From positions 1,178,001-1,242,000 of the forward strand of contig NZ_CP165628.1 of the NCBI RefSeq assembly GCF_041200025.1: 64,000 bases of DNA, given 5' to 3'. The position numbers were made by a program, and so were the translations under genes. The notes below the pieces were generated by a model. The model worked only from the letters and a program-made list of their open reading frames with translations, was not told the DNA's origin and did not search any database. Position 1 is the first letter of the stretch, and each line of letters begins with the position of its first letter. Source of the DNA: Rouxiella sp. WC2420 (GTDB lineage Bacteria > Pseudomonadota > Gammaproteobacteria > Enterobacterales > Enterobacteriaceae). This document shows positions 4,782-21,200 of the stretch, in pieces.

Positions 4782-4803
4782 CTTACAACCCAGATCACAG
4801 TTA
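4782..4803. promoter_or_regulatory. Possible CRP site upstream of csiE
   Basis: One CRP half-site is good (AGATCACA, with TCACA at 4795-4799), the other is poor. It lies about 100 bp before the csiE start, where CRP control is known in E. coli. It could equally belong to the divergent metal-transport pair. Weak evidence. Confidence 0.3.
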
Positions 4804-4839
4804 TTTTTTACTAAGCTTCTTAATTGATTTGTTTTAAGA

Positions 4840-4854
4840 TGTTACTTTATAACA
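4840..4854. promoter_or_regulatory. Putative Zur operator of the zevAB-like pair
   Basis: TGTTACTTTATAACA matches the 15-bp core of the enterobacterial Zur box (TGTTATAnTATAACA) at every defined position except two and is a near palindrome. It ends 20 bp before the first possible start codon of the DUF1007 gene, where a bound repressor would block transcription. This suggests the pair responds to zinc rather than nickel. Confidence 0.6.
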
Positions 4855-4874
4855 ATTAAAGCATTTAACTTGAT

Positions 4875-5567
4875 TTGGACCCTCTTTTGAAAATTTCACC
4901 ATTGCGCTTCAGGCAAAAATTTACGCCGCGTCAAAAACTTTGCCAATTAGCGGGTGTGATTATGATGATGGCTTGTGCTTTTCCGACTTTGGCTCACCCA
5001 CACAGTTTTATTGATATGCAGACCACTTTAGTGACCAGAGATAAAAGCCTGATTGGTCTCAAAATGGTATGGACGATGGATGAAATCACCTCCGCCGACT
5101 TGCTCTATGATGCAGGCAAAGCAGCCCCTGATTCCATCGTGTGGAAAAAGCTGGCGGCCGAGGTTATGGCGCGAGTAATGGCACAGCACTATTTCACCGA
5201 CGTATATCGCGATGGTAAACCGGTGAGATATATGCGCCTACCCAGTGAGTACCAACTATCACTTAACGGCGCCAAAGCTGTGCTGGAGTTTGTGATCCCG
5301 CTCGCCGAGCCTGCTCCGTTGGCGGGAAAGCCGTTGGTCATCTCGACTTATGATCCCAGCTATTTTGTTGATATGACGTATAAAGACGATCAAGCTTTAC
5401 ATCTATCTGCCGAAACTCAGCCCAGCTGCAAGTTGTCTCTTTTTACTCCGGCGCCGAATGCCTCCTTACAAGCTTACGCTCTGTCGCTGGATAAGGCCGA
5501 CGCACCGCCTGAAACCATGGATCTTGGTCAGCAATTTGCCCAGAAGGTGACCCTGCAATGTCAATAA
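4875..5567 (+). CDS. zevA: Periplasmic metal-binding DUF1007 protein, ZevA-like
   Basis: A 230-residue exported protein of the DUF1007 family. A hydrophobic segment (LCQLAGVIMMMACAFPTLA) is followed by a signal-peptidase site and a mature N-terminus beginning HPHSFID, the His-rich start typical of the family and a likely metal ligand. In Haemophilus influenzae, DUF1007 (ZevA) and NicO (ZevB) proteins form a zinc system. The same pair is seen here with the two genes overlapping by 10 bp. The start is uncertain: TTG at 4875 and TTG at 4887 are both possible and neither has a clear ribosome-binding site. The Zur-box-like palindrome just upstream supports a zinc role. Confidence 0.8.
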   Translation: MDPLLKISPLRFRQKFTPRQKLCQLAGVIMMMACAFPTLAHPHSFIDMQTTLVTRDKSLIGLKMVWTMDEITSADLLYDAGKAAPDSIVWKKLAAEVMARVMAQHYFTDVYRDGKPVRYMRLPSEYQLSLNGAKAVLEFVIPLAEPAPLAGKPLVISTYDPSYFVDMTYKDDQALHLSAETQPSCKLSLFTPAPNASLQAYALSLDKADAPPETMDLGQQFAQKVTLQCQ

Positions 5568-6625
5568 AAGAGCTGCCCCTGCTATCGACCAAGACTCCAA
5601 AGGGTCAAAATTCCAGCTCGAAAGGGGTAAAACTTTGGCCGCTGGCGCTGTTTGTAGCCTTGCTGGTATTCGCCTGTGCAGCGCTGTGGCATTTTTGGCC
5701 GCGCATTCTATTGAGCAGTATTATTTGGCAACGTGGCCTGCATCAACACCTTGCCGCCATTCTCCAGCAAGTAAGCGCTCACCCAGCGCAGGCGGGACTT
5801 AGCCTTACCTTACTAAGCCTGATTTATGGAGTTGTTCACGCTGTAGGGCCGGGCCATGGGAAAGTGGTGATCACTACTTATCTGGCCACTCATCCGTCTC
5901 GGCTTAAAAACAGTTTGCGGCTAACTTTTGCCTCTGCAGTCGTGCAAGGGCTGGTGGCTATTTTGCTGGTTACACTGGTGCTGGGCGTGTTTCAACTTTC
6001 ATCTCGTCAGCTCCATCAGAGCAGTTTTTGGCTGGAGAAGGGCAGTTATGTCTTGGTGATGCTATTGGGAACAATCCTTTGCTGGCGCGCGATTCGACGA
6101 GGCCTGACCCTGCTGAAAGCTGCATGGCGTGAGAATAAATCACAATCCCGGCCGATGAAGATCCAAACTATTCGCCTGGCCGACGATCATCAGCATGATG
6201 CCAACTGTGGTTGCGGGCATCAGCACGTTCCAAGCGATAGCCAGCTTCAATCAGATACTGATTGGCGCACACAGATAGCGGTGGTGCTGGCGATGGGGCT
6301 TAGACCCTGCTCGGGCGCTATTATGGTTTTACTGTTTTCCAAAGTCATCGGGGTTTACTGGTGGGGCGTATTGTCAGCGCTGGTAATGGCACTAGGCACC
6401 TCATTGACGGTGTCACTGGTAGGCTTTTTAGTATTTTATAGCCGAGAGTTAGCGGTGAAACTCAGCGTTAATCAAGCTCCCTCACTCGCAACCCGATTAA
6501 GCTGGTCGTTATTTTCACTTCTGGGTGGGCTAATTCTGATATTTGCAGGGATTTTACTCTACCAGGCCAGCGATTCGGTTTTTGGCGGTGGAATAGGGCC
6601 ATTCGGTCATTCGTCATCGCTATGA
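5558..6625 (+). CDS. zevB: NicO-family nickel/cobalt/zinc transporter, ZevB-like
   Basis: A 355-residue inner-membrane protein with about six or seven hydrophobic segments. It carries the NicO signature HAVGPGHGK (about residue 95) and the second motif GLRPCSGAI (about 248). Between them is a cytoplasmic loop rich in His and Cys (DDHQHDANCGCGHQH), a probable metal-binding site. Family members include RcnA exporters and NiCoT-like transporters. Coupling to a DUF1007 periplasmic protein, with overlapping reading frames, matches H. influenzae ZevAB. Direction of transport cannot be told from the sequence. A hairpin terminator follows. Confidence 0.85.
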   Translation: MSIKELPLLSTKTPKGQNSSSKGVKLWPLALFVALLVFACAALWHFWPRILLSSIIWQRGLHQHLAAILQQVSAHPAQAGLSLTLLSLIYGVVHAVGPGHGKVVITTYLATHPSRLKNSLRLTFASAVVQGLVAILLVTLVLGVFQLSSRQLHQSSFWLEKGSYVLVMLLGTILCWRAIRRGLTLLKAAWRENKSQSRPMKIQTIRLADDHQHDANCGCGHQHVPSDSQLQSDTDWRTQIAVVLAMGLRPCSGAIMVLLFSKVIGVYWWGVLSALVMALGTSLTVSLVGFLVFYSRELAVKLSVNQAPSLATRLSWSLFSLLGGLILIFAGILLYQASDSVFGGGIGPFGHSSSL

Positions 6626-6635
6626 TTTAATTAAT

Positions 6636-6671
6636 AAAGAGCCAAAAGATAATATTTGGTTCTTTATTTTT
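6636..6671 (+). terminator. Terminator after zevB
   Basis: An 11-bp stem with one G-T pair, AAAGAGCCAAA/TTTGGTTCTTT, is followed by ATTTTT. Confidence 0.75.
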
Positions 6672-6917
6672 CACGTCTTTGTCCCCTAAGATATTCATCT
6701 TGCTTCTCACGCAATATCTAGCCTATATTCAGCTCAGGAATACCTTTTACTCATAATAATGCCCACCGATTTATTAAATTAAAATCTTGTGCACCGCAGC
6801 TGTGCTGAAGTCAGGGATGATCTATTTTAATGGTATTTTAAAAAGTCGCCTAGTTCATTAGCCTACCTTAATAGTTAAGTTTGTATTACCTTTGAAACCA
6901 AAATAGCGTGAGAGGTA

Positions 6918-7991
6918 ATGAAATTGAAAACAAACGAGAATATACAATATCTCCGTGGAGTAGCGGCGTTAAGCGTTGTTTTCGCACATATCGCTTCAAG
7001 CTTTGCTGCATATAGAAACGTGGGTGGTTTAGGAAGTGTAGTCCTGCATAATATGGAGTTAGTTGGACAGGTTGGTGTTGGCGTGTTTTTTGTTATTAGC
7101 GGTTATATTATGTCGATGACCACCAATGACAAGGCAGGCGGTACCGCACACAGCAGGGCGTTTATCGTCAAGCGGGCAGTCAGAATTTATCCACTCTATT
7201 TTTTTTGGACTACGGTGTGTGTGGTTTTGTGGGAACTGCGAATGTTCAACAGCGCGCAGCATTATTCCCTTGGCAAGATAATAACTTCCTATCTGTTGAT
7301 CCCTTATGTTTCATTTAATGGCGATGTTATTGATCCTATCCTTCGGCAGGGTTGGACACTAATGTATGAGATTTTCTTTTATATTTCCTTTGCAGTGCTT
7401 ATTTTTTGCGGGCAACATCGGAAAAGCGGTATTTATATCTTGACGATATTATTTATCACATTGGGAATGTCGTCTGAATTAATGACTTCTGAAAATGCCA
7501 AGTCATTTTTTTCATTTCAAATATCTTATCTTTTTATTGTCGGCATGTTCATTTTTCATCATCAAGAAAAAATTCTTGGCTTGATAAGTTTTAAAATGGC
7601 TAGAGGAGGACTTTTAACACTTTTCGTGATATTAATGCTTGTTATCATTTTTAAATACAGCGAGTTAGGTGACAATGCAGTATATCTTCCCTATTTGAAT
7701 GCTATTGTTTTGTTTCTTTATCTGTTTACGGCTAAAAAAGTATCAGGCCCAGTGCTTGAAATCGGTAACTCTTCTTATTCACTCTATTTAACCCACACAT
7801 TTTTTACCACCGCCTATGCCATGCTGATCATTCGCAGCGGATTGAGTAATTTAACCTTGGGTCTGATAGGCATTGTGGTGTTCCTGGCGGCCGTTGTGTT
7901 TGGAGAGATAACCTACCGATTGATTGAAAAAAGGCTCATCTTCAAAACTGCGGCCGTGGCCCATATTCCGTCAAACTTAAAAAAATCCTGA
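6918..7991 (+). CDS. Membrane acyltransferase, acyltransferase-3 family
   Basis: A 357-residue integral membrane protein with about ten hydrophobic segments. The N-terminus (IQYLRGVAALSVVFAHI) is the acyltransferase-3 signature, with the conserved Arg and the catalytic-type His of the R-x10-H pattern. FFVISGYIM and a C-terminal SYSLYLTHTF segment are also family hallmarks. Such enzymes O-acetylate or succinylate surface polysaccharides (OafA, WecH, ExoZ). No sugar-biosynthesis genes are adjacent, so the substrate is unknown. The coding sequence is visibly AT-rich compared with the flanking genes and stands between a terminator on each side, suggesting a laterally acquired single-gene unit. 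Confidence 0.85.
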   Translation: MKLKTNENIQYLRGVAALSVVFAHIASSFAAYRNVGGLGSVVLHNMELVGQVGVGVFFVISGYIMSMTTNDKAGGTAHSRAFIVKRAVRIYPLYFFWTTVCVVLWELRMFNSAQHYSLGKIITSYLLIPYVSFNGDVIDPILRQGWTLMYEIFFYISFAVLIFCGQHRKSGIYILTILFITLGMSSELMTSENAKSFFSFQISYLFIVGMFIFHHQEKILGLISFKMARGGLLTLFVILMLVIIFKYSELGDNAVYLPYLNAIVLFLYLFTAKKVSGPVLEIGNSSYSLYLTHTFFTTAYAMLIIRSGLSNLTLGLIGIVVFLAAVVFGEITYRLIEKRLIFKTAAVAHIPSNLKKS

Positions 7992-8013
7992 AACAATGAC
8001 GGGGTTAAGCAGG

Positions 8014-8040
8014 CAAAAAAAAGGACGCCGAGGCGTCCTA
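8014..8040. terminator. Bidirectional terminator between acyltransferase gene and suhB
   Basis: Stem AGGACGCC/GGCGTCCT with eight A residues on the left and a short AT tail on the right. On the minus strand it gives a hairpin followed by a T run, so it serves mainly suhB. The two genes converge on it. Confidence 0.85.
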
Positions 8041-8058
8041 AAATTTCGCTGCTAACGA

Positions 8059-8862
8059 TTAACGCTTAAGCGCATCGTGCAGCTCATCACGCATTGCATT
8101 AAGGATACCCTTAACAACACGTGGGTTACCGGCAACAATGTTACCAGAAGAATAATGATTGTGGCCGCCAACGAAATCAGTCACTACGCCGCCTGATTCA
8201 CGAACCAGCAGCTCGCCACCGGCGAAATCCCAAGGCTTCAGGCCGATTTCGAAGAAACCGTCAACGCGGCCAGCAGCGACGTAAGCCAGATCCAGCGCGG
8301 CTGAACCGCTACGGCGGAAGTCTGCACATTCGGTGAACAGTTTGCCAACCACTTTCATATAGCTGGTTGCATGCTGTTTCAGTTTGAATGGGAAACCGGT
8401 AGCAAGAATGGTTCCGTCGAGGTCTTTAGCCGAGGTGCCGCGCAGACGATAGCCGTTCAGCTGTGCGCCCTGACCGCGGGTAGCAGTGAACAGTTCGTTA
8501 CGCATTGGGTCATAAACTACAGCCACTTCGGTGCGGCCTTTGATGCGCACAGCGATAGAAACTGCGAAATGAGGGAAACGTTTTACAAAGTTGGTAGTGC
8601 CATCCAGCGGGTCGATAATCCATTGTATGTCATTTTCTTCGCCAGCCAATTCACCGCACTCTTCGCCGATGATGGTGTGTTTTGGATACGACTTGCGAAT
8701 AACCTCGATGATCATGCTTTCTGCATCGCGATCTACGTTAGTGACAAAGTCGTTAGTGCCTTTCTGAGTTGCTTCTACAGAGTCTGGCATTTCGTAATGT
8801 TTGGCAATCAGGTTACCGGCCTTGCGCGCAGCGCGCACGGCGATGGTGAGCATCGGATGCAT
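8059..8862 (-). CDS. suhB: Inositol-1-monophosphatase / antitermination factor SuhB
   Basis: 267 residues, the same length as E. coli SuhB and about 80 percent similar by eye. The Mg-binding residues of the inositol-phosphatase family are present: Glu67 in GEECGE, Asp84 and Asp87 in DPLDGTTNF, and the Asp in KPWDFAGGEL. SuhB hydrolyses inositol 1-phosphate and also joins the NusA-containing rRNA antitermination complex. It is divergent from trmJ with a 172-bp shared promoter region, as in E. coli. Confidence 0.97.
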   Translation of the reverse strand: MHPMLTIAVRAARKAGNLIAKHYEMPDSVEATQKGTNDFVTNVDRDAESMIIEVIRKSYPKHTIIGEECGELAGEENDIQWIIDPLDGTTNFVKRFPHFAVSIAVRIKGRTEVAVVYDPMRNELFTATRGQGAQLNGYRLRGTSAKDLDGTILATGFPFKLKQHATSYMKVVGKLFTECADFRRSGSAALDLAYVAAGRVDGFFEIGLKPWDFAGGELLVRESGGVVTDFVGGHNHYSSGNIVAGNPRVVKGILNAMRDELHDALKR

Positions 8863-9034
8863 GGATATCTTCCAACTAGGATGTTAAAGAACGGGAAACG
8901 GCGCGCAGTATAGCAATAGTTATGCTAAACGCCAACGAATTTGCACCCTTTGTCTTATAAACCGCCTGCTAAACCATGACGCAGCGCCGGATTGTGATAA
9001 ACTGTTGCGATTTTCCGCAACGCTCAGAGTTTGT

Positions 9035-9772
9035 ATGCTACACAATATTCGCATTGTCCTGGTTGAAACCTCCCACACCGGGAATATGGGGTCCACCGCC
9101 CGCGCTATGAAAACCATGGGGTTGTCTAACCTTTATTTGGTCAACCCGCTCGTAAAACCTGATTCACAGGCAATCTCGATGTCCGCAGGGGCCAGCGACG
9201 TAATTGGCAATGCCACTATCGTCGAAACCCTGGATCAGGCTCTCGAAGGTTGCAGCCTGGTCATCGGTACCAGCGCACGTTCGCGCACCTTGCCATGGCC
9301 TATGCTGGAACCTCGCGAATGCGGCGAGCTCAGCGCTAAAACTTCAGTCAATTCTCCCGTTGCGCTGGTGTTTGGTCGTGAACGTGTAGGGTTAACCAAT
9401 GAAGAGCTGCAAAAGTGCAACTATCACGTTTGCATTCCCGCCAACCCGGAATATAGCTCGCTGAATCTGGCCATGGCAGTACAGCTTATTGCCTACGAAG
9501 TTCGCGTCGCCTGGTTAAGCCAATTGGAAGCTGAAAAGCCTCAGATTGAATACGAAGAGACACCTTATCCGCTGGTTGAAGACCTTGAACGATTCTATGT
9601 TCACCTTGAACAAGTCCTGCTAAAAGTAGGGTTTATTCGCAAGGCGCACCCAGGTCAGGTGATGAGCAGACTGCGTCGTTTATTCACCCGCGCGCGTCCA
9701 GAATCTCAAGAGCTAGCCATCCTGCGTGGCATTTTAAGCGCCGTAGATAAGCAAAGTATCGATAAGGAATAA
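9035..9772 (+). CDS. trmJ: tRNA (cytidine/uridine-2'-O-)-methyltransferase TrmJ
   Basis: A SPOUT-class methyltransferase of 245 residues (E. coli: 246) that 2'-O-methylates position 32 of several tRNAs with S-adenosylmethionine. Family motifs: [13 protein letters not shown] near the N-terminus, [15 protein letters not shown] and [13 protein letters not shown] forming the knotted SAM site. The frame is open 30 bp further, but the ATG at 9035 gives [11 protein letters not shown], matching homologues. Its position just before iscR is conserved. Confidence 0.96.
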
Positions 9773-9859
9773 GCTTTATTATTCTTTAATATAGTTATTT
9801 ATCAAAGTATTACATGCTGGTTTTTTATGGAAAAATTAACCATGGAAACTACGTATGTA

Positions 9860-9884
9860 ATACTTGAGTAAATTACTAGGTTAA
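9860..9884. promoter_or_regulatory. Putative IscR type 1 site, distal copy
   Basis: About 20 of 25 positions agree with the type 1 IscR consensus: it begins ATACTTGAGTAAATTACT and runs directly into the second site. Two adjacent sites before iscR are the known arrangement in E. coli. Confidence 0.5.
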
Positions 9885-9909
9885 ATAGTTGACTAAATTA
9901 GTCGGGAAT
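9885..9909. promoter_or_regulatory. Putative IscR type 1 site, proximal copy
   Basis: Begins ATAGTTGACTAAATTAGTC. By eye 24 of 25 positions fit the type 1 consensus for [2Fe-2S]-IscR. The TTGACT inside it can serve as a -35 box, so the bound repressor would cover the promoter, as at the E. coli isc promoter. Confidence 0.75.
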
Positions 9910-9974
9910 GTCAGACTCATTTTCATGTTGTCCCCCCTATGAATTTTTGACTTCTACTAACAGGTAAACATGTT

Positions 9975-10469
9975 ATGAGACTGACATCTAAAGGTCGTTA
10001 TGCTGTTACAGCTATGTTGGACGTAGCACTGCATTCCCAGGAAGGCCCAGTGCCTTTAGCTGACATCTCTGAACGTCAGGGCATCTCTCTGTCTTATCTG
10101 GAGCAGCTATTCTCCCGTCTGCGTAAACATGAACTGGTTGCCAGCGTTCGTGGTCCGGGCGGCGGTTATCTGTTAGGTCGTGAAGCCACCGAAATTTCCG
10201 TGGGTGCGGTGATTACTGCCGTTGACGAATCTATCGATGCGACCCGTTGCCAAGGTAAAGAAGGCTGCCAGGGTGGCGAACGCTGCCTGACCCATACTTT
10301 ATGGCGTGATCTGAGCGAGCGCATTAGCGGCTTCTTGAATGACATTACTATCGGCGAACTGGTTAATAACCAAGACGTGCTGGAAGTTGCCGATCGCCAG
10401 AATAACGATCTTCGCCGTATGCCGAACGGTCGTCCACAAGAAACGATTAATGTGAATTTGCGCGCCTAG
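9975..10469 (+). CDS. iscR: Fe-S cluster-sensing regulator IscR
   Basis: A 164-residue Rrf2-family repressor. The N-terminal winged helix ([31 protein letters not shown]) is nearly identical to E. coli IscR. The [2Fe-2S] ligands Cys92, Cys98, Cys104 and His107 are all present. IscR normally represses the iscRSUA-hscBA-fdx operon when loaded with a cluster and activates suf when apo. Both the sensor and its operator survive here although most of its target operon is gone. Confidence 0.97.
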
Positions 10470-10771
10470 CAATAGGTTACGCATTTTCTTAGACGCCAAA
10501 CATTTTGCTCTGCAATTTGGGCGTAATAAAAACCGGGTTGGATAAGCGCAACGACAATGTGTCATTGCAGACTTGTCGCCCGGTTTTTGTTTTATGAACT
10601 TTCTCATTAGAAGGCCGTCTTAATAAGCATATTCTGCTTTCCGACCCGCGTTTGGCATGATTTCCCTTTTACCCAGCAGTAAAGCCGTTTTAAACTAACC
10701 CGACAATGAACTCGCCTCGATAATAAATAGTCACGTTCGTTTGCGGACGCGCAGTACGGAGCATTTTTGCC
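10470..10771. other. iscR-iscS spacer with terminator-like structure
   Basis: A 302-bp spacer without a gene. Besides the long hairpin listed separately I see a weak -10-like GATAAT at 10719-10724 with no good -35. In E. coli this spacer is much shorter and is the target region for the RyhB small RNA. Confidence 0.5.
10528..10588 (+). terminator. Long hairpin with T tract between iscR and iscS
   Basis: Outer stem AAAAACCGGG (10528-10537) pairs perfectly with CCCGGTTTTT (10579-10588). A second stem, CGACAA (10552-10557) with TTGTCG (10573-10578), lies immediately inside the 3' arm. The sequence after it is GTTTTATG. It resembles an intrinsic terminator or attenuator placed after iscR. It could also be a processing or RyhB-dependent protective structure. 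Confidence 0.6.
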
Positions 10772-11938
10772 ATGAAATTACCGATTTATCTGGATTATTC
10801 GGCCACTACGCCGGTTGACCCACGCGTAGCCGAAAAGATGATGCAGTGTTTAACGCTGGACGGTACTTTCGGTAACCCGGCCTCTCGTTCCCATCGCTAT
10901 GGCTGGCAGGCTGAAGAGGCGGTGGATGTAGCGCGAAATAATATTGCCGAGCTTATCAACGCTGATCCGCGCGAAATAGTTTTCACCTCTGGCGCAACCG
11001 AATCGGACAATTTGGCAATCAAGGGTGCCGCGCTGGCCAATCAGCATAAAGGCCGCCACATCATTACTCTCACCACCGAACATAAAGCGGTGCTGGACAC
11101 CTGCGAGCAGCTCGAGCGTGAAGGTTTCGACGTCACCTATCTCAATCCGCAGGCCAATGGGCTGCTGAGTCTGCAACAGCTGGAACAGACGTTGCGCGAT
11201 GACACAATTTTAGTGTCAGTGATGCACGTCAACAATGAAATTGGCGTGATTCAAGATATCGCCGCCATCGGTGAAATCTGCCGTAGCCGCGAGATCCTGT
11301 TCCACGTCGATGCGACGCAAAGCGTAGGTAAGATCCCGGTCGATCTCGGCGAGCTTAAGGTCGATTTGATGTCGTTTTCTGCGCACAAAATTTATGGCCC
11401 GAAGGGCATCGGCGCACTGTTTGTCAGCCGAAAACCCAAGGTTCGGATTGAAGCCCAGATCCACGGTGGTGGACACGAGCGCGGTATGCGTTCCGGAACT
11501 TTGCCGGTTCACCAGATTGTTGGCATGGGCGAAGCCTATCGCATTGCCAGGCTTGAGATGACTGAAGAAGCCGTTCGTCTGGCGACATTGCGCGATCGAC
11601 TTTGGGCTGGTGTTCGCCAGAACAAAGATGTCTTCCTTAATGGAGCAGAAGGTCATACCGCTCCCAATATTCTCAACGTCAGCTTTGCCAACGTTGACGG
11701 CGAATCGCTGATCATGACCCTTAAAGATCTTGCGGTATCGTCTGGTTCTGCCTGTACCTCCGCCAGCCTTGAGCCTTCTTACGTATTAAAGGCTCTGGGG
11801 CTTAACGATGAGCTGGCGCACAGTTCCATTCGTTTTTCGGTAGGGCGTTTTACTACTGAAGAAGAGATCGATTACAGTATTTCGCTGATCGGTAAATCAA
11901 TAAGCCGTCTGCGCGAATTTTCGAACGCTAATCATTGA
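10772..11938 (+). CDS. iscS: Cysteine desulfurase IscS, C-terminally shortened
   Basis: Aligns without gaps to E. coli IscS from residue 1 to about 384, then stops at 388 instead of 404. The PLP lysine (SFSAHKIYG, Lys206) and the mobile-loop cysteine ([10 protein letters not shown], Cys328) are intact, so desulfurase activity is expected. The missing end corresponds to the E. coli segment PLWEMYKQG onward, which contacts the scaffold IscU in the known IscS-IscU complex. Here RLREFS is followed by NANH and a stop. The genes that normally follow (iscU, iscA, hscB, hscA, fdx, iscX) are absent, and pepB starts 27 bp later. The enzyme may now mainly feed tRNA thiolation through TusA and ThiI. The ribosome-binding site GGAG is about 10 bp upstream. 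Confidence 0.96.
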
Positions 11939-11965
11939 AGATTAAGAATAATCAGGAGTGTTGTA

Positions 11966-13288
11966 ATGACGACCGAAGCTACGACTAATGATGTAATGCC
12001 CGTCCTGCTGTCTTCACAACCGGCCGACGCACGTTGGGGTGAAAAAGCCCTGCTGAGCACGGATTCCAACGGCATCACTATTCATTTTTCTGCTGAAGAC
12101 ACACTGTCTTCTATTTCACGTGCGGCGCGTCGTATCGACGGTCAGGGCGTAAAAAAAGTTAAACTGGCAGGTGAAGGCTGGGATCTTGAAAACAGCTGGG
12201 CGTTCTGGCAAGGCTTCCGTGGCCCGAAAGGCACTCGCAGCGTTGATTGGGCGGAGCTGTCCACTGCCGATACTAAAACCCTGCAACAGCGTCTGAAGAT
12301 TATTGACTGGGTTCGCGATATCATCAACAAACCGGCTGAAGATCTTAGCCCGGAAAAACTGGCTCGCAGCGCCGTAGATTTGCTGTGTGAGTTTGGTGAC
12401 TCCATCAGCTATCGTATCCGCAAGGGCGAAGAGCTGCGCGAGAAAGAGTACAACGGGCTTTACACCGTGGGTCGCGGCTCTGACCGTCCACCGGTTCTGC
12501 TGTCTCTGGATTACAACCCGACCGGTAACCCGGACGCGCCAGTGTTTGCCTGTCTGGTAGGCAAAGGTATTACTTTTGATACCGGCGGTTATAGCTTAAA
12601 GCCAAGTGCGTCAATGGATTCAATGAAAGCCGACATGGGTGGCGCCGCCACGCTGACAGGTGCGCTGGCACTGGCAGCAGCGGGTGGTTTGGACAAACGT
12701 GTCAAACTTTACCTGTGCTGTGCCGACAACATGGTTAGCGGTAATGCGCTGAAGCTGGGCGACATCATTCATTATCGCAACGGCAAAACCGTTGAAGTGA
12801 TGAACACTGACGCCGAAGGCCGTCTGGTTCTGGCCGATGGCCTAATCGACGCTGCAAAACATAATCCAGCTATCCTGATTGATGCCGCAACGCTGACCGG
12901 TGCTGCGAAAACTGCGCTGGGCAACGATTATCATGCGCTGTTCAGCTTTGATGATGCGCTGGCCGCGGAGCTTCTTGAAAGTGCTGCTGCTGAACATGAA
13001 CCGTTCTGGCGTCTGCCGCTGGCCGAGTTCCATCGCAAACAGTTGCCGTCGAACTTTGCCGAATTGAACAATATCGGTGGCCCTGCCTATGGCGCGGGTG
13101 CCAGCACTGCCGCGGCTTTCCTGTCGCACTTCGTTGAAAACTATAAGAAAGGCTGGCTGCACATCGACTGTTCTGCTACCTATCGCAAAAGCGCTGCCGA
13201 CCAATGGTCTGCGGGCGCTACCGGTGTTGGCGTGCGTACGGTTGCCAATTTGCTGTTAGCAAAAGCCAACACTGGCAAAACCCAATAA
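11966..13288 (+). CDS. pepB: Aminopeptidase B, M17 family
   Basis: A 440-residue leucyl-aminopeptidase-family enzyme, slightly longer than E. coli PepB (427). The M17 signature [14 protein letters not shown] carries two metal ligands and the catalytic Arg. [11 protein letters not shown] and [14 protein letters not shown] supply further metal-binding and active-site residues. It releases N-terminal residues from cytoplasmic peptides. In E. coli it is the distal gene beyond iscX. Here it follows iscS directly behind a CAGGAG, so it is probably cotranscribed with iscS and sseB. Confidence 0.96.
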
Positions 13289-13307: not shown

Positions 13308-14156
13308 ATGAGCGTCCCGCACGATATTCCTGCCGCAACTGCTACGGATGAAAACGAGCTTGAGCGTTTGCTCAGGCTTTCTGTGACTCAGGCAGCCTAT
13401 CGCCCGGCCTTTTATCAGCTATTGCTTGATTCAACGGTGTGGGTGTTAGGCGATGCAGGCCAGCAGGACGGCGACCTGGCGTCTGAAATTAACGCGGGCA
13501 GCGAGCTAAACTTGCTGCATTGGGAAAAGCAGGATGGCAGCTCGATCATTCCTTTCTTCTCTTCTGTTGAAGTGCTTGAGCGCGCTGCGGCAGGTGAAAG
13601 TGAAGACGAACAGTCTTTTGTCGCCTTACCGGCAAAGATCTTGTTTGAGATGACTCAGGGCGAGGAGCTGTTTCTCAATCCAAAATCGGAGTACGGCAAA
13701 GAGCTTTACCCGAGTGAGATAACCATGCTGCTCAATACTGGCGGGTTGTCGGTGCCGACAGAGCTGGTCCTCGACGCCGAAAGCCAGCTGTTAATCGGTC
13801 AGCCGGAGGAATATCCGTCGGCAATAGTCGATGCGTTGACCACCCTGTTTAGCCAGAAAAAACCGGTTCGCCGGGCATTTTTGGCGCTGATACACGATAA
13901 AACTGTCGATCCAGAACCCAATCTGCTGATTGGGATCGAGGCTGATGGATCCGAGGCTGAAGTTGACGCCTTGATCCGCGAGGCCGGAAATGTAGCTAGC
14001 GAAACGTCACCTGACGATAAGCCGGTTGATTTCTGCGTGGTGAATGAGAAGGAGAGGGGGCTGAGCCATTATCTGGTTAGCCATACTCAGCCTTTCTATC
14101 AGCGTAAATGGGGCAGTTGGTTACGCAATATTATTCCTTCATCGGGCAAAGCCTGA
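13308..14156 (+). CDS. sseB: Enhanced serine sensitivity protein SseB
   Basis: 282 residues against 258 in E. coli, with matching segments RPAFYQLLLDSTVWVLG, LHWEKQDGSSIIPFF and PNLLIGIEADG, and the C-terminal PFYQRKWGSWLR. Two SseB domains can be recognised, N-terminal (about 20-150) and C-terminal (about 155-275). The biochemical role is unknown; overexpression in E. coli gives serine sensitivity. It lies 19 bp after pepB, so is likely in the same transcript. A strong terminator follows, and sseA, its usual neighbour, is missing. Confidence 0.93.
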   Translation: MSVPHDIPAATATDENELERLLRLSVTQAAYRPAFYQLLLDSTVWVLGDAGQQDGDLASEINAGSELNLLHWEKQDGSSIIPFFSSVEVLERAAAGESEDEQSFVALPAKILFEMTQGEELFLNPKSEYGKELYPSEITMLLNTGGLSVPTELVLDAESQLLIGQPEEYPSAIVDALTTLFSQKKPVRRAFLALIHDKTVDPEPNLLIGIEADGSEAEVDALIREAGNVASETSPDDKPVDFCVVNEKERGLSHYLVSHTQPFYQRKWGSWLRNIIPSSGKA

Positions 14157-14242: not shown

Positions 14243-15421
14243 TTACCATCCGTGGATTATTGGCCACAGCGCGTCAATCTTTTCACTGCTATCTCTGACG
14301 ACCGCAAATTCCTCGTGTTGGCTCACTGTCGCACAGGCGTGATTGGGTAAAATTCTCACCCGACTGCCGTAGGGTAACTCTGGAAGCGATTGTTGGCTGC
14401 CAGGTCGTAAAGACAGAATCCCGTGTTCCTGATTCACCCCGGTCATAATTAAATCTCCCAGCGGCTTACCGGACATATCGCAGACGATGCCATAGCCTTG
14501 ATCGACATCCTGCGATGCCGTGCCTCGGTCGCGAGACATTGCCATCCAGCCAGCATCCACCATGATCCAACCTTTTTGGCGCTGATGACCAATCACCGTA
14601 GCAACCACTGACAGGGCAATGTCTGAGGTCTGACAAACGCCCGCACCGGTCATGACTAGATCAAACAGGGTATAAACTCCCGCACGAACTTCAGTAACAC
14701 CGGTTAAATTCTGACTGAAATGGGCAGTTGGCGTCGAGCCTACGCTGACAACCGGGCTCGGTAATCCCGCTTCGCGCAGTGTTTCGGCACAGGCCACGGC
14801 GGCAGAGCGTTCTCTTTCCGCCATGGCCTGATGCTCCTGCAAACTCTTGCAGTGATAAGACTCACCGGCATGAGTGATAATGCCACGCAGTTCCGCCCCC
14901 TGGTTATGCAGTATTTTACCTATCTCGATAAGTAGAGCATCCCCTGGCACCACGCCGCTGCGATGGCCGTCGCTGTCAATTTCAATCAGCGCTGGAATTT
15001 TGACCGCGGACTGTCGGGAATAGTCTGCTACGACCTGCGCCTGCTCAATGCTGTCTAAAATCACGCTGATATCCGTGCCTGCTTTTAGCAAAGCGACGAC
15101 GCGAGCCAGCTTTTGCGGTGCAATACCCACGGCGTAAATCAGATTTTTGCAGCCTGCCGCTGAAAAGACTTCAGCTTCTTTTAACGTAGAAACTGTCGCC
15201 GGGCCATTACCGCCAGTGAGGATAAGCCTGGCTGCCTCAACTGATTTAACCGTTTTGAGATGCGGTCGCAAAGGGATGCCAAAACTGTCGGTGTGTTTGC
15301 GCAGTCGAGCAACATTACGTTCAAGCTGGTCGCGGTTTAGCAGCAGGAAAGGCGTTTCTCTGTCGTGAATGCTCTCCCCTTGAAATGGGGCAGTATCTTG
15401 AATATTGAGTTTGTCAGTCAT
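14243..15421 (-). CDS. D-threonine aldolase / D-serine dehydratase-family enzyme (hydroxyaspartate aldolase or dehydratase candidate)
   Basis: A 392-residue fold-type III PLP enzyme. An alanine-racemase-type N-terminal barrel carries the PLP lysine in RPHLKTVKS (Lys56), and the C-terminal domain has the metal pair His361/Cys363 in PNHACATV. The family includes D-threonine aldolase, the beta-hydroxyaspartate aldolase BhcC of Paracoccus (hydroxyaspartate to glycine and glyoxylate), eukaryotic-type D-serine dehydratase, and D-threo-3-hydroxyaspartate dehydratase of Delftia. The operon partners, a hydroxyaspartate-dehydratase-like and an ornithine-cyclodeaminase-like enzyme, make a hydroxyaspartate substrate the best guess. 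Aldolase and dehydratase activities cannot be told apart here. It is the last gene of a four-gene operon, 18 bp after the preceding one. Confidence 0.8.
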   Translation of the reverse strand: MTDKLNIQDTAPFQGESIHDRETPFLLLNRDQLERNVARLRKHTDSFGIPLRPHLKTVKSVEAARLILTGGNGPATVSTLKEAEVFSAAGCKNLIYAVGIAPQKLARVVALLKAGTDISVILDSIEQAQVVADYSRQSAVKIPALIEIDSDGHRSGVVPGDALLIEIGKILHNQGAELRGIITHAGESYHCKSLQEHQAMAERERSAAVACAETLREAGLPSPVVSVGSTPTAHFSQNLTGVTEVRAGVYTLFDLVMTGAGVCQTSDIALSVVATVIGHQRQKGWIMVDAGWMAMSRDRGTASQDVDQGYGIVCDMSGKPLGDLIMTGVNQEHGILSLRPGSQQSLPELPYGSRVRILPNHACATVSQHEEFAVVRDSSEKIDALWPIIHGW

Positions 15422-15439
15422 ATCGGTAGCCTGGAAAAA

Positions 15440-16384
15440 TTAAAAAGAATCCAACGCGTTAACAATCGCGGCGGCAATAAAGAGATCTTGCAGCGCGATG
15501 CCCGAGCTGTCAAAAACAGTGATTTCATCTCGATTGCTGCGACCCGGTGTTTTGCCAAGGATCACGTCACCCATGGCATTAACCGGGGTATCTTTAGCGG
15601 CAAACTGCGTGGCCAGATGTTGAAACTCGCCAATCGTTCGCGACTGTTCCGGCAGGTCGGCAAAAAGCCGTGCCTGATTAAATAGTTCTGCGGGCAGCTC
15701 TTGCTTACCCTGCGCATCTGACCCCATGCTTGCAACGTGCGTGCCGGGTTTCACCCATTCAGCCTGAAATAAAGGAGAGCGTGATCCGGTGGCGGTGACA
15801 ATAATATCAGCGGCTTTACAGGCCGTTTCCGCATCACTGAGTCTCGCATCAATGCCTTTATTCAGCAGATGCTGGCGTAAACTTTCGGCTCTGGTCTGGT
15901 CCCGATTGACGATATAAACGTGGGCAATCGGCAGAATTTCAAGCAGCGCGTCGACCTCATAAAATGCCTGATGACCGGCCCCAAAGATTGCCAGCCGTGT
16001 AGCATCGGGTCTGGCTAGATATTTTGCCGCTACCGCATCGGCAGCTGCGGTGCGGTAGGCGTTAACCTTGCCACCCTCGAGAACGGTTTCTAGTTCGCCG
16101 GTTTCATCGTTGAGCAACATGATGTACGAGTTATGATTCGGCAGACCTTTGGCGCTGTTGTTTGGCCAATAAGTGCCTATTTTTAAACCGGTTAAAGGGG
16201 TTGTCACAGACTGCGTTGCTGACTTGACGGTAAAACGCGAGCTGGTCTCTGACCCGTGGCCGATCAGTACGGGAAACAGCGTGCTTTGTGCTGAAGCGAC
16301 GGCAATAAACGCAGCTTCAACTGCCTCGAAAGCCAACGGGTGAGAGACCACGGTTAAACACTCTGCTGCTGAAATAAATCGCAT
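15440..16384 (-). CDS. Ornithine cyclodeaminase/mu-crystallin family dehydrogenase (iminosuccinate reductase-like, BhcD candidate)
   Basis: 314 residues, the normal length for the family. Features include Lys68 in LTGLKIGTYWP, Arg111 in NAYRTAAADAVAAKYLA, the NAD(P)-binding glycine motif IFGAGHQA (about 134-140), and VNRDQTRAESLR following beta strand two. Members include ornithine cyclodeaminase, alanine dehydrogenase, ketimine reductases, DauB, and BhcD, which reduces iminosuccinate to aspartate. The dehydratase encoded 4 bp upstream would produce iminosuccinate from hydroxyaspartate, so a BhcD role is the best-supported inference. Ketimine or dehydroamino-acid reduction in another pathway is possible. 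Confidence 0.8.
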   Translation of the reverse strand: MRFISAAECLTVVSHPLAFEAVEAAFIAVASAQSTLFPVLIGHGSETSSRFTVKSATQSVTTPLTGLKIGTYWPNNSAKGLPNHNSYIMLLNDETGELETVLEGGKVNAYRTAAADAVAAKYLARPDATRLAIFGAGHQAFYEVDALLEILPIAHVYIVNRDQTRAESLRQHLLNKGIDARLSDAETACKAADIIVTATGSRSPLFQAEWVKPGTHVASMGSDAQGKQELPAELFNQARLFADLPEQSRTIGEFQHLATQFAAKDTPVNAMGDVILGKTPGRSNRDEITVFDSSGIALQDLFIAAAIVNALDSF

Positions 16385-16388
16385 AATG

Positions 16389-17369
16389 TTAATCCTTCTG
16401 GCTGGCGAATTTGGCCAGCAAGCGGCTGTAATTGTCTAAATCAACGTTCCCACCGCTGATAATGATACCGATTCGTTTACCGCGCAGCGAATCGGTATTG
16501 GCACGAACTGCCGCCAGCCCCAGGCAACCCGTTGGTTCCACAATCAGCTTCATACGAGAAGCGAAAAAGGCCATGCTTTCAACCAGCTGTTCGTCCGTGG
16601 CAGTATAAATATCGCTGACATCGCGTTGAATAATAGAGAAGTTTATCTGGCCGAGAGAAGGCGTTTGCGCGCCGTCGGCTATAGTTTTCGGAGTGCTTAT
16701 TTTAACGATGGAACCCGAGCGGAAAGACTGTTGCCCGTCATTACCGGCTTGCGGTTCAACGCCATAAATCTTGCAGGCGGGTGACAGGGCGCGAGTGGCG
16801 AGGGCACAGCCAGCCAGCAGACCGCCACCGCCCAACGGAACAAACATGGCATCAAGCTCGCCGACTTCTTCGATAAGCTCTTTTGCCGCAGTGCCTTGCC
16901 CGACAATCACCGGGGCGTAGTCGTACGCTGGGACAATCGTATAGCCGAATTTGTCGGCAAGTTCCCGAGTAATGTCTTCACGACTCTGATTATAGCGATC
17001 ATATTCAACCACCTTTGCGCCGTAGCCTTCGGTAGCCGCACGTTTGGCTTTTGGCGCATCCAGTGGCATGACAATGGTCGCTGGAATGCCGAGCAAGGAG
17101 GCGGCCAGCGCAATGCCTTGTGCGTGGTTACCAGAGGAAAAGGCGATCACACCTCTTTTACGCTGTGATTCGTCGAGCAGGGACAGGGCATTAAACGCGC
17201 CACGGAATTTGAAGGCTCCCATACGCTGCAAGTTTTCACACTTGAAAAAAACTTCAGCGCCCAGCTCTCGATTAAGAATACTTGACTGCATCACCGGCGT
17301 TTTATGGGCATAGCCTTCGATTCTTCCGGCGGCAGCCACAACATCATCATAAGTAGGCAGTGTGATCAT
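16389..17369 (-). CDS. Threo-3-hydroxyaspartate ammonia-lyase-like PLP enzyme (BhcB candidate)
   Basis: A 326-residue fold-type II PLP enzyme of the serine racemase/threonine dehydratase group without a regulatory ACT domain. The PLP lysine is Lys54 in MGAFKFRGA; SSGNHAQG binds substrate, GGGGLLAG binds the PLP phosphate, and SGGN is near the C-terminus. IADGAQTPSLG is a pattern I associate with hydroxyaspartate dehydratases rather than IlvA or TdcB. It would convert L-threo- or erythro-3-hydroxyaspartate to iminosuccinate, which hydrolyses to oxaloacetate and ammonia or is reduced by the neighbouring enzyme. It is the first enzyme gene after the regulator, 46 bp downstream. Confidence 0.85.
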   Translation of the reverse strand: MITLPTYDDVVAAAGRIEGYAHKTPVMQSSILNRELGAEVFFKCENLQRMGAFKFRGAFNALSLLDESQRKRGVIAFSSGNHAQGIALAASLLGIPATIVMPLDAPKAKRAATEGYGAKVVEYDRYNQSREDITRELADKFGYTIVPAYDYAPVIVGQGTAAKELIEEVGELDAMFVPLGGGGLLAGCALATRALSPACKIYGVEPQAGNDGQQSFRSGSIVKISTPKTIADGAQTPSLGQINFSIIQRDVSDIYTATDEQLVESMAFFASRMKLIVEPTGCLGLAAVRANTDSLRGKRIGIIISGGNVDLDNYSRLLAKFASQKD

Positions 17370-17415
17370 TGTTCCCTCTTTGCTTGCTGTTTAACGACAT
17401 TGAATGCCAGATATT

Positions 17416-18054
17416 TTAAGGTTTTACATCGTTGTAAAGCGTGGCCCGTGACACTCCAATATGTTCGGCAATAATGCTCATCGCCTTGCGTATCTCAAGA
17501 TAGCCGCCGTCTTTCAGTTCATTTAATAGTTGGCGGCGTTCTGAGGCTTTTAGCGCTTGAGGGATCCGGGAGCGGCTGGTGGCAAATTTATCGATTTGCT
17601 CACGGATTGCTTCAGCATTGGCCGGGTCCAGCGTCTCTCTGATTTCCACATTACCGGTCTGGCAAAACTGCGCCAGCATGCTTTGCATTTGGCTGAAAAG
17701 GTTGAGATCAATATTCAGACACAGCGCTGCAACATAACGCCCTTGTGCATCTTTAATGCCAACTGAGGTACTTTTTGCTCGTCTTCCATCGGCAAAGCGG
17801 TTGGCGTAATTAGCTATGACCTGTGGGTATTCAGGATCGGCAATCCGTGCCAGGCCCAGCTCAGTGGCTGGCGCGCCGACTTCACGACCCGAGAGATTAT
17901 TATGGATCGACAAAATAGCGTGCTTAGGGTCAAGCAAGTCGTGGACCACCACCTCACAAAAAGGGGCAAATGTCTCACCAATCCCCTGAGCGATTTGATC
18001 CAGCTGACTTAGCAGCGCCTGATTGGCGTGATGTTCGGAAGTCTGTTTTTTCAT
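17416..18054 (-). CDS. YheO/DauR-type transcriptional regulator of the hydroxyaspartate-like operon
   Basis: 212 residues from the chosen start. The N-terminal YheO-like PAS domain (about 15-120) includes FAPFCEVVVHDL, SIHNNLSGREVG and STSVGIKDAQGRYVAALCLNID. The C-terminal DauR-type helix-turn-helix (about 165-210) ends IAEHIGVSRATLYNDVKP. DauR represses the D-arginine genes dauBA in Pseudomonas, where DauB is also an ornithine-cyclodeaminase relative. The frame stays open for 51 further codons upstream, but the ATG at 18054 gives MKKQTSEHH, where family members begin, and the added residues look non-coding. It is the first gene of its operon, so is probably autoregulated through the inverted repeat just upstream. 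Confidence 0.85.
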   Translation of the reverse strand: MKKQTSEHHANQALLSQLDQIAQGIGETFAPFCEVVVHDLLDPKHAILSIHNNLSGREVGAPATELGLARIADPEYPQVIANYANRFADGRRAKSTSVGIKDAQGRYVAALCLNIDLNLFSQMQSMLAQFCQTGNVEIRETLDPANAEAIREQIDKFATSRSRIPQALKASERRQLLNELKDGGYLEIRKAMSIIAEHIGVSRATLYNDVKP

Positions 18055-18092
18055 AATTGACAATTTATCTATAATTTTACAAATCGTCAATT
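18055..18092. promoter_or_regulatory. Inverted repeat, probable operator of the YheO-type regulator
   Basis: AATTGACAATTT (18055-18066) and AAATCGTCAATT (18081-18092) are inverted repeats agreeing at 11 of 12 positions, separated by 14 bp. They directly abut the regulator start codon. On the minus strand, TTGACG followed 17 bp later by TAAATT could be the promoter, so a bound repressor would cover it. Confidence 0.55.
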
Positions 18093-18298
18093 TGTTTGTT
18101 TTATAGACCGCGAGTCTCGAGCAGAGGTTTGCGAGCTGTCTCGCAACGTGATGGCAAAAAATGTCTTCTGATGTATCTTTGCGTCTCGCGGTAACGCAAT
18201 TTTTCAAAATATGTGGTTGTATTTGATTGTTGTCTGGCGCATGTTTAGCCGCGTTTGGGCAGCGTGAAGAATTGATCGATCATCAGGGAGATAGCGCA

Positions 18299-21200
18299 AT
18301 GGGCAAGTCTTTAGGTTCAGGATTATGCAGGGCAGTGAAACGTTGGCAGGTTTTAGCTGTCGGGTTAGCTCTGTTGAGTTTAAGTGCCTGTGATGATCCT
18401 AAACCTAAAGATCCACCGCCGCCGCCTTCAGAACAGATTGCCGAAAAAGTATCTGCCCAGAAAATCGCTTCTCCTTTGGCACAGAAGCTTGATAGCAATC
18501 AACGTGAGGCGCTGGCAAAAAAGAGTGCCGGACAGCCGCTTGCACTGCTTGATGCCTCCGAACTTCAGCTTGACGGCGCGAGTGCGCTGGTATTGACCTT
18601 TTCCGTTCCTCTCGATCCTGAACAGAATTTTGCATCGTTGGTGCATTTGGTCGATACCAAAAGTGGAAATCCAGATGGAGCCTGGGAGCTATCAGATAAT
18701 CTCACGGAGCTAAGATTCCGCCATCTATTACCCAACAGGAAACTGGTAGTCACTGTCGACGCAAATCTCAAAGCGCTTAACGGAGCAGGGTTGGGGGCCG
18801 AGCAGCAGAAGACTCTCGAGACTCGAAATATTGAACCTAGCGTAGGTTTTGCCAGTAAAGGCTCGCTGCTGCCAACTCGATGGGCCGAGGGTTTGCCTGT
18901 CATCGCGCTCAACGTGAATAATGTTGACGTTAATTTTTTCCGAATTAAAAGTGAATCGCTTCCAGAGTTTCTTGCCGATTGGCAATCACGCAGCGCGCTG
19001 TCTTCCTGGGAGTCCGAGACCCTGTTAAAGCGTGCCGATCTGGTTTATACCGGGCGTTTTGCACTTAATCCTCAGCTTAATACCCGCGAGCATCTGTTAC
19101 TACCTCTGGCAGGAATTGAAACGCTAAAGCAGCCGGGAGTCTATCTTGCGGTAATGCAACAGGCCGGGCGCTATAGCTACACTAATCCGGCGACCCTATT
19201 TACGCTTAGCGATATCGGCGTGTCATTACATAGTTATAGTCAACAGATTGACGTTTACACTCAAGGCCTTGAAGCCGGTATGCCGCTCGCCGATATCAAT
19301 CTGCAACTATTAGACGGGAAAGGGCACACGCTGTCGCAGGGCAAGACTGACAGTCAGGGCCACGCCAAATTTGCCAAAGATTCAAAGGCGGTGTTATTGC
19401 TTGCCCAGCATGACGGCGAAACTAGCCTGATTAATCTCAACCAATCGGCACTAGATCTGGCTGAGTTTGATATTGCCGGTCCGCAAGGCTATAGCAAAAC
19501 GCTGTTTGCCTTTGGGCCGAGAGATTTATATCGGCCAGGTGAAACCTTGCTTTTAAATGCTCTGCTGCGCGATGCCGACGGAAAACCAGTTTCTACACAG
19601 CCGATCAAAACTCAGCTGATTAAACCCGACGGTCAGGTTGCGCATACCTTTATGTGGCAGCCACAAAACGGTTTATATCAATATCAATACCCTATCCCAC
19701 AAGATGGGCCGACCGGTGAATGGAAAGTCAGTTTTAATCTTGGCGATAACCAGCTGCGTTATTATCCATTCAAGGTCGAGGATTTTCTTCCAGAACGTAT
19801 GGCGTTGGATCTCGGCAGCAGTAAGCAACCGCTGGCGATAGATGCTGAGGTCAAGTTTGATGTGACCGGGCGTTATCTCTATGGTGCACCGGCGGCGGGA
19901 AATCGCCTTCAAGGGCAGGTTTATTTACGGCCGTTGCGAGAGGCAGTTTCTGCCTTGCCTGATTACGAGTTTGGCGTAGTTAATGAAGAAAACCTTTCCA
20001 GAACGCTGAGCGATATTGACCAGACATTAGACGCCGAAGGTAAGGGCGAGGTTAGCATTGAGAACAGCTGGAACAGCGTGCATTCACCGCTGACGGTGAT
20101 TCTTCAGGCGAGCCTGCTGGAGTCGGGCGGTCGACCGATAACCCGTCGGGTCGATCAGGCGATATGGCCAGCCGAGGTGCTGCCAGGAATCCGCCCGCTA
20201 TTTAACAAGCAGGATATTTACGATTACCGTACCGATAAAACGGTGTCGCAGGCGGTAGTCAATGAAAACACTCAGGCTGATTTTGACATTGTTTCTGCCA
20301 ACGCCGAAGGTCAGAAGCTGGCGGCGAAGGGGCTTGAGGTTCGGTTGGTCCGCGAGCGTCGCGACTATTATTGGCAGTGGTCAGAGAGTGACGGCTGGCA
20401 ATCTTTATACGACAAAAAGGATTTGGTGCTGGCTCGTCAGCAGATAGATATTGCCGCCGATGGCTCGACCAAAGTCAGCTTCCCGGTCGAATGGGGTGCG
20501 TATCGTATCGAGGTTGAAGATCCGCAAACTCATCAGGTCAGCAGCCTGCGTTTCTGGGCCGGTTACAGTTGGCAGGACAATACCGATAGCACCGATGCTG
20601 TGCGTCCCGATCAGGTCAAATTAAAACTTGATAAACCGGCTTATCAACCGGGCGAGAGGGCAAAAATACACATTCAGGCTCCCGCGGCGGGTAAGGGCTA
20701 TCTGCTGGTGGAGTCAAGCGACGGACCGCTTTGGTGGCAGGAAATAAACGTACCTGAGGCCGGTATTGATGTCGACGTACCTATCAACAGCGAATGGCGG
20801 CGTCACGACCTTTATTTCAGCGCGCTGGTATTGCGTCCTGGCGATAAGAAGCAGCAGTCTACGCCCAAACGCGCCGTAGGATTATTGCATCTGCCGCTGG
20901 TTACTGAAGGCCGTAAGCTCAACCTGCAACTCCAGGCTCCGGCCAAGATTCGCCCTAACCAGCTGCAAACCGTGAAAGTTAAAGCCACGGTGGAAGGTAA
21001 AGCTGTGCCTCATCATATCAATCTGCTGCTCTCGGCGGTGGATGCCGGGGTGTTGTCGATAACTCGTTTTAAAACTCCCGATCCTTACGATGCATTTCTG
21101 GGTCGTAAACGTTATAGCGTTGATCAGTATGACGTTTATAGCCATTTGATTGAAGGCAAAGGCCGTATGGCTAGCCTGAGCTTCGGCGGTGATGGAGATG

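Follow-up and report, generated by a model that had tools for sequence, protein, structure and literature searches.

In a 64,000-nucleotide stretch of Rouxiella sp. WC2420 (contig NZ_CP165628.1, positions 1,178,001 to 1,242,000; this whole stretch is referred to here as the window), the operon of the iron-sulfur cluster (ISC) system is reduced to its regulator and its cysteine desulfurase. iscR and iscS are followed directly by pepB, and iscU, iscA, hscB, hscA, fdx, and iscX are missing. From the genes kept and lost here and in relatives, it appears very probable that IscS now serves only the thiolation of transfer RNA (tRNA) and cofactors and that the sulfur utilization (SUF) system has become the housekeeping iron-sulfur (Fe-S) system, under the control of IscR and less under that of Fur. 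Every functional step beyond gene content is one that we infer.

All three genes lie on the forward strand. The iscR gene at 9975..10469, encoding 164 amino acids (aa), scores 324 bits with NF008110 (cut-off, 275) and has an intact CX5CX5CX2H motif, the cluster ligands of which we take to be C92, C98, C104, and H107. The iscS gene at 10772..11938 (388 aa) scores 676 bits with TIGR02006 (cut-off, 643), and the aminopeptidase gene pepB at 11966..13288 scores 736 bits with NF003450 (cut-off, 437). Between the last two lies a junction of 27 bp (11939..11965), the site at which IscU-positive relatives carry iscU-iscA-hscB-hscA-fdx-iscX. An earlier note on this DNA had named the three genes and the 27 bp from the iscS stop to the pepB start, and the family scores and coordinates confirm both; its claim that the six genes are lacking between iscS and pepB was likewise borne out, as tblastn of IscU, IscA, HscB, HscA, Fdx, and IscX against the window gave no match at an E value of ≤1e-4. 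Its statement that IspG (29778-30899) and RlmN (26521-27756) are encoded in the window also holds, both genes being real.

The genome as a whole (5,283,909 bp in 2 contigs, 100% complete) was searched for isc genes elsewhere, as the earlier note had proposed, and no isc scaffold genes were found. The profile PF01592 (IscU/NifU N-terminal domain) gave no match at an E value of ≤0.1, the same search being positive in 12 of 14 named control genomes, E. coli among them. A query in which the six missing proteins of Leclercia were strung together returned nothing genome-wide for IscU, HscB, Fdx, or IscX. With HscA it found only Hsp70-like proteins (the best at 43%, plus two weaker places), and with IscA only SufA (47%), an ErpA-like protein (38%), and an NfuA-like protein (27%), so that the genome is evidently without a true HscA or IscA. 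That the ISC genes have moved to another place in the genome, or have diverged past detection, is scarcely credible. A related scaffold can indeed sit elsewhere, as the congener G115 encodes one PF01592 protein; however, this is a NifU encoded in a nif cluster that also carries a NifS (locus L255), IscU itself is absent from G115, and the match was rejected as an exception. Against relocation stand the empty PF01592 search and the lack of HscB, Fdx, and IscX in a complete genome, and the missing frataxin and IscS tail described below fit a true absence. The idea is thus refuted as far as sequence profiles reach, and isc genes elsewhere in the genome were rejected.

The three congeners G291, G219, and G115 all have the identical iscS-pepB arrangement with differing spacer sequences, and two sister genera also carry the junction. 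An assembly error or a strain-level deletion, the former being a caution of the earlier note, therefore has a negligible probability: mis-assembly is excluded by the same junction with different spacers in three congeners and likewise in sister genera, and the arrangement recurs in named species of other genera, which refutes both. The normal order that the earlier note had given for Enterobacterales, with iscU to iscX between iscS and pepB, was seen in IscU-positive loci with a downstream pepB, in which the pepB match starts about 3.6 to 4.3 kb past iscS. The iscS-iscU...-pepB order is intact in Aeromonas, Vibrio, and Photobacterium, which shows that the complete operon came first and that the state in the window arose by loss rather than gain. 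Horizontal replacement of iscS was set aside, the gene being in its original place and sharing about 80% identity with the closest IscS found in other genomes.

To establish how widely IscU is missing, 295 genomes were drawn evenly from the GTDB family, which presumably covers most of NCBI's order Enterobacterales. PF01592 was present in 203 and absent from 92, many of the latter being small, symbiont-like genomes. Thirty-one IscU-less genomes measure 3.1 to 5.6 Mb: 29 of the 92, a minimum number (3.1 to 5.5 Mb), together with G115 and G141, whose PF01592 matches are of the NifU type only. For G141 we infer this, its sole match (1.1e-46) being of the same strength as that in G115 and its iscS locus having no iscU within 1.5 kb. 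A search next to iscS found no iscU-fdx in 8 of 80 named loci, those of Pantoea anthophila, P. stewartii, Pantoea spp. IMH and Eser, Erwinia persicina, an Erwinia metagenome-assembled genome (MAG), Lonsdalea quercina, and an unclassified MAG; a Mixta sp. and another Erwinia sp. retain iscU to fdx.

A tree of rpoB and rpoC was built for 80 genomes, comprising the 31 IscU-less ones of 3.1 Mb or more and 49 that are IscU-positive, the latter chosen mainly one per genus. The IscU state changed 10 times on the codon DNA tree, 9 times with positions 1 and 2, and 8 times with protein. On the codon tree at least nine changes are forced by the starred branches, the mean after shuffling was 24.8, and the tree would read as 11 events if every change is a loss. 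The genus of the window and two other genera form one IscU-less clade (10 genomes; Shimodaira-Hasegawa-like approximate likelihood ratio test support, 100) with the IscU-positive G048 as sister, and genus g141 is split, as G141 lacks IscU whereas in G236 the isc operon is complete as far as pepB. The loss of IscU is thus evidently common to three genera and recurrent in the order, being neither an artefact nor a one-off. Several loci of other kinds were also seen. In L092 (G119) an iscX match lies about 100 bp past iscS and before pepB, with iscU-fdx gone, a partial operon remnant; in L215 (G174, an IscU-less genome of 2.2 Mb) an IscA match near iscS is a possible remnant; and in the IscU-less loci L108 and L110 (G069 and G191) neither iscR nor pepB is found in the 1.5-kb flanks of iscS.

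The IscS of the window is co-linear, without gaps, with E. coli IscS from residue 1 to 384 (and to the same residue with PDB 1p3w, residues 385-404 being absent), after which come four unrelated residues and a stop: positions 11924..11938 on the forward strand hold codons 385-388 (NANH) and the stop codon, where E. coli has a 20-residue tail (385-404). The earlier note had not seen this shortening. The catalytic residues are intact, including Cys328 and the pyridoxal phosphate lysine, which we take to be number 206. In E. coli, IscS is reported to contact IscU through residues 309-316, 347, and 379-391, and deletion of 376-404 or 374-404 to abolish IscU binding (PMC2854127). The C-terminal tail with which E. 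coli IscS binds IscU is thus missing from the window protein, and binding of IscU is predicted to be gone.

For the counts of IscS and SUF, 14 of the 92 IscU-less genomes were left out (12 of ≤2 Mb, and G292 and G293, of unknown size) and G115 and G141 were added, giving 80. IscS was found in 65 of these at an E value of ≤1e-120, the 15 without it all being ≤0.6 Mb, and the iscS loci of 50 of the 65 were fetched and translated. In all 50 the conserved C terminus, which in E. coli-like IscS reads LSPLWEMFKxGVDxxxIEWxHH, is cut off or scrambled, with many different endings. Among 80 IscU-positive genomes, 79 IscS proteins align to residue 404 and the remaining one is split. Tail state and IscU state agreed in 9 of 9 (P = 0.0039), 7 of 7 (P = 0.016), and 6 of 6 (P = 0.031) independent pairs on the three trees. 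These figures also bear on the converse order of events, in which the tail, under some other influence, was altered before the isc block disappeared, IscU being by then unable to dock. Some tails are only partly decayed (G064 and G141), which would suit that order, yet no decayed tail occurs among the 80 IscU-positive genomes and decay in the IscU-less ones spans partial to complete; a tail-first sequence is thus very unlikely.

A class-level sample of 370 genomes (321 with PF01592 and 48 without it besides Rouxiella sp. WC2420) neither extends nor breaks this rule. A desulfurase at an E value of ≤1e-70 was found in 23 of the 48, mostly a distant one, and outside the family only two IscU-less genomes, G596 and G455, have a close IscS (67 to 74% identity). 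The test is weak, since the desulfurases of most IscU-less genomes in this sample are distant ones. The IscS of G596 stops at residue 382, and 30 IscU-positive controls, picked among strong PF01592 matches, all reach 402 to 404, one of them in two pieces.

To compare the interfaces of IscS, one genome per loss (n = 11) was set against 38 of 39 IscU-positive genomes (G040 was lost) at 277 sites invariant in the latter. Retention was 0.45 in the IscU footprint (24 sites; P = 1e-11) and 0.17 in its tail part (11 sites), compared with 0.92 at 232 other sites. The four TusA sites and the five catalytic ones were fully retained (1.00), and six sites common to ThiI and CyaY/IscX were retained at 0.95. 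The TusA-contact residues W45, E49, D52, and D65 are kept in the window protein and in all 31 large IscU-less genomes. Six basic sites on the Fdx/CyaY side were retained at 0.48 (P = 2e-4), R112 being lost in 11 of 11 loss lineages. Relative to the Leclercia reference, the window protein carries F89A, Y90N, K92H, K95R, K101T, R112E, R223K, and R340K. Its residue 112 is therefore E, and an R112E/R116E double mutant of E. coli IscS is reported to bind Fdx more weakly (PMC3750173). Broadly, this evolutionary map of the IscS interfaces matches the one drawn from crystal structures and mutants in E. coli.

Frataxin is missing as well. PF01491 gave no match in Rouxiella sp. WC2420 at an E value of ≤0.01 and was absent from 91 of the 92 IscU-less genomes, being present in 186 of the 203 genomes with PF01592; the 17 without it include G022, G115, G141, and several small genomes. 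Among the 80 genomes of the tree, the states of frataxin and IscU conflict in G022 only, and on average 8.9 of 9, 6.8 of 7, and 5.9 of 6 independent pairs agreed on the three trees. Since E. coli cyaY sits outside the isc operon, the loss of frataxin and that of the isc genes would not be one deletion.

The genes that remain point to SUF. A complete sufABCDSE operon, named by gene order and reading with SufB/D identified by PF01458, lies on the reverse strand at 4473-10179 of locus L115 (about 3424972-3430678 of the first contig). PF01458 was found in 77 of the 80 IscU-less genomes, including all 73 of good quality, the three without it being 0.2-Mb genomes. TusA, ThiI, ErpA, and NfuA were present in all 20 genomes tested of the 31 large IscU-less ones, and an IscR with the CX5CX5CX2H motif adjoins iscS in 28 of 30 IscU-less loci. 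IscR is described as conserved among species with ISC machinery (PMC8593673); unlike that statement, which ties it to ISC species, IscR here outlives ISC. Both iscS and erpA are listed among the ancestrally essential genes of Enterobacteriaceae in a transposon study (PMC11481867). No SufB/SufD match was obtained in 4 of 24 IscU-positive genomes searched (G126, G014, G070, and G098), so ISC-only members of the family exist alongside SUF-only ones.

With a complete sufABCDSE and no isc scaffold genes elsewhere, Fe-S assembly must by gene content rest on SUF, and the dependence on SUF supposed in the earlier note is supported to that extent. Its description of a desulfurase left without its scaffold stands in one part: the scaffold is gone, but IscS does not seem merely orphaned, as the decay of its IscU-binding end and the absence of frataxin make it look specialised for other partners. 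An ancestor that this genus shares with the two sister genera would have lost the Fe-S half of ISC by deletion, the sulfur half being retained. IscS would then hand persulfide only to TusA (onward to tRNA and the molybdenum cofactor) and to ThiI (for tRNA and thiamine), SufS-SufE-SufBCD would build all Fe-S clusters, and ErpA/NfuA would carry them. In E. coli, IscU and TusA are reported to compete for IscS (PMC2854127, PMC11302665), so that removal of IscU would also remove a competitor. IscR would sense the cluster supply, repressing its own operon when loaded and activating suf when empty.

It is improbable that IscS instead still feeds Fe-S assembly, giving sulfur to SufBCD or ErpA/NfuA without IscU as a second donor beside SufS. 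The IscS of Mycobacterium tuberculosis, which has no isc neighbours, is reported to contribute to Fe-S enzyme activities (PMC10848736), and the A-type and Nfu carriers as well as R220, part of the Fdx/CyaY site, are retained here. However, the genome has its own SufS-SufE beside SufBCD, and the erosion of IscS is strongest where it binds IscU, the TusA site being invariant.

The promoter regions bear on the control of both systems. Upstream of iscR lies a predicted IscR type 1-like operator, ATAGTTGACTAAATTAGTCGGGAAT (9885..9909, forward strand), with one mismatch to the type 1 consensus; it is the sole match in the window at ≤3 mismatches, and none of 100 shuffled sequences contains one. Upstream of sufA there follow in turn a block, ATACCCTCTTAAAACAAGAGGTTGAA, a Fur-box core for which we take the consensus to be TGATAATCATTATCA, and a -10-like hexamer, the core sitting between the -35-like and -10-like hexamers. 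A promoter scan gave TTGAAG-16-TAAAAT, about two such matches being expected by chance in that stretch. Sequences upstream of suf were compared for 20 of the 31 large IscU-less genomes and for 20 of 24 IscU-positive genomes searched, the other four being without SUF, and the block was located by sliding match in all 40. The suf promoter of E. coli is reported to combine a type 2 site for IscR with a site for Fur (PMC12594620), and one E. coli strain has a perfect Fur core (15/15) at the same position. In 12 sequences the score against the type 2 consensus was barely above that of shuffles, and the block is therefore named IscR-like from its conservation and position.

Within the clade of the window the IscR-like block matches that of the sister G048 letter for letter in seven of eight genomes sampled of the 10, G219 having one difference. 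Matches to the Fur core fall from 15 in G048 to 10, 10, 10, and 9 in this genus (10/15 in the window genome) and to 11 or 12 in the two sister genera, and the -10-like hexamer is TAAAAT or TAGAAT here compared with TAAGAT in G048 and TAACAT in many other IscU-positive genomes. Overall, the core scored 12 to 15 (median 13, n = 20) in IscU-positive and 9 to 13 (median 11, n = 20) in IscU-less genomes. Erosion of the Fur core is thus clear in the clade of the window and elsewhere probable, not universal. It would let SUF run in iron-rich cells as a housekeeping system; other lineages of the order would have reached the same state on their own, some showing a strong promoter step and others not. 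Farther upstream of sufA, at about 10595-10620 of L115, a Fur-box-like palindrome, AATGATAACTATTATCATAATT, was seen beside a divergent open reading frame (ORF) of 136 aa.

On balance, we lean slightly towards the wider proposal that Enterobacterales repeatedly and independently discarded IscU, IscA, HscBA, Fdx, IscX, frataxin, and the docking end of IscS as one unit, and that the SUF promoter of several lineages lost its Fur switch and kept IscR. If true, frataxin would there be without a selected role outside IscU-based assembly, and a stress Fe-S system would become the housekeeping system by a repeatable regulatory path.

Several observations weigh against these readings. The search for HscBA, Fdx, and IscX covered the whole genome in Rouxiella sp. 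WC2420 and three congeners and the neighbourhood of iscS in the others. In two gammaproteobacterial MAG loci (L071 and L073) iscS runs directly into iscA, with hscA next and iscU absent, yet the IscS tail is intact. The IscU-less G455, assembled in 290 contigs, has an IscS with the full 404 residues, and the IscU-less G224 has a weak frataxin match (E = 4.9e-4), presumably the one of 187 PF01491 matches that fell under the cut-off.

Parts of the interface comparison also fit poorly. In E. coli IscS, K101 is reported to be immaterial for Fdx, and R220 to be part of a non-binding triple mutant (PMC3750173); K101 is lost in most IscU-less proteins, and R220, needed for Fdx/CyaY, is retained in all 31 large IscU-less genomes, so that erosion at the Fdx/CyaY site is partial. 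Mutation of F89, R116, or R223 in E. coli IscS is reported to lower ThiI binding to a lesser degree and that of R340 strongly (PMC2854127). All four are changed in part of the IscU-less proteins; among the ThiI-affecting residues of the window protein, R116, R220, R237, and M239 are kept and F89A, R223K, and R340K are changed. With F89, R116, and R223 eroded, the ThiI side is not fully frozen. Tail decay is a sign of lost constraint and does not prove that IscS avoids all Fe-S work. For the Fur core, the difference between groups (Mann-Whitney P = 1.4e-6) is not corrected for kinship. Seven of 20 IscU-positive genomes score just 12 and seven of 20 IscU-less genomes score 12 or 13, the pair G141 and G236 ties, and the IscU-less G020 retains 13, which is why the erosion is not called universal.

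A solitary iscS is already known: in M. tuberculosis the ISC operon is reduced to iscS beside a complete SUF, and tRNA thiolation is named as a possible role, as proposed here (PMC10848736). There iscS is in an operon with trmU, whereas here it has not left its original neighbourhood of iscR and pepB, losses have occurred repeatedly in a single order, and relatives with the intact system make a residue-by-residue comparison possible. Candidatus Moranella endobia, a mealybug symbiont, is described as keeping iscS with a complete suf operon; unlike the genomes considered here it is a reduced symbiont, for which possible metabolic complementation was proposed (PMC3620526). Most bacteria are reported to have one Fe-S system, and SUF is the single one in, for example, Staphylococcus aureus (PMC11559095), but here the SUF-only state is derived from a two-system ancestor, with IscR kept. 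With the ISC and SUF systems of E. coli the window genome shares the iscR, iscS, and pepB neighbourhood, sufABCDSE, the type 1-like site before iscR, and the IscR-like block before sufA; it differs in having no iscUA-hscBA-fdx-iscX, cyaY, or IscS tail and in its degraded Fur core at the suf promoter. In searches of the open literature no account was found of repeated ISC loss in full-size Enterobacterales genomes, some of which published phylogenomic presence/absence tables may already list, nor of erosion of IscS interfaces or tail, co-loss of frataxin, or change of the suf promoter in such losses.

The textbook picture of Fe-S biology in enterobacteria comes from E. coli, in which ISC is the housekeeping and SUF the stress system. 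Full-size relatives of E. coli with SUF alone would be natural separation-of-function experiments, bearing on how the residues of IscS divide between Fe-S partners and tRNA thiolation, on the purpose of frataxin, and on how a stress operon becomes the sole system. Annotators should not conclude from an IscS that scores above its family cut-off that an ISC system is present.

The remaining features of the locus are as follows. The gap between iscR and iscS (10470..10771, forward strand) measures 302 bp; gaps in this genus are 267 to 302 bp (n = 4) compared with 39 to 201 bp in IscU-positive Enterobacterales loci, and a scan for terminator-like sites found none inside the gap, the two reported sites both being within iscR. 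Upstream on the same strand lies trmJ (9035..9772; NF011694, 478 bits), whose ORF is listed from 9005 with the TrmJ model starting at residue 11; in the Leclercia locus L007, too, a trmJ-like ORF is found upstream of iscR. Downstream, sseB follows at 13308..14156 (forward strand; NF008624, 322 bits). Farther on, an ORF of 1,695 aa (18227-23314, forward strand) had no NCBIfam match at 1e-60. Directly past sseB, positions 14243-18207 on the reverse strand hold a gene set like hydroxyaspartate genes, with a BhcC-like aldolase and a BhcD-like reductase, both below their family cut-offs, a threo-3-hydroxyaspartate ammonia-lyase above its cut-off, and an adjoining ORF that reads like a transcription regulator.

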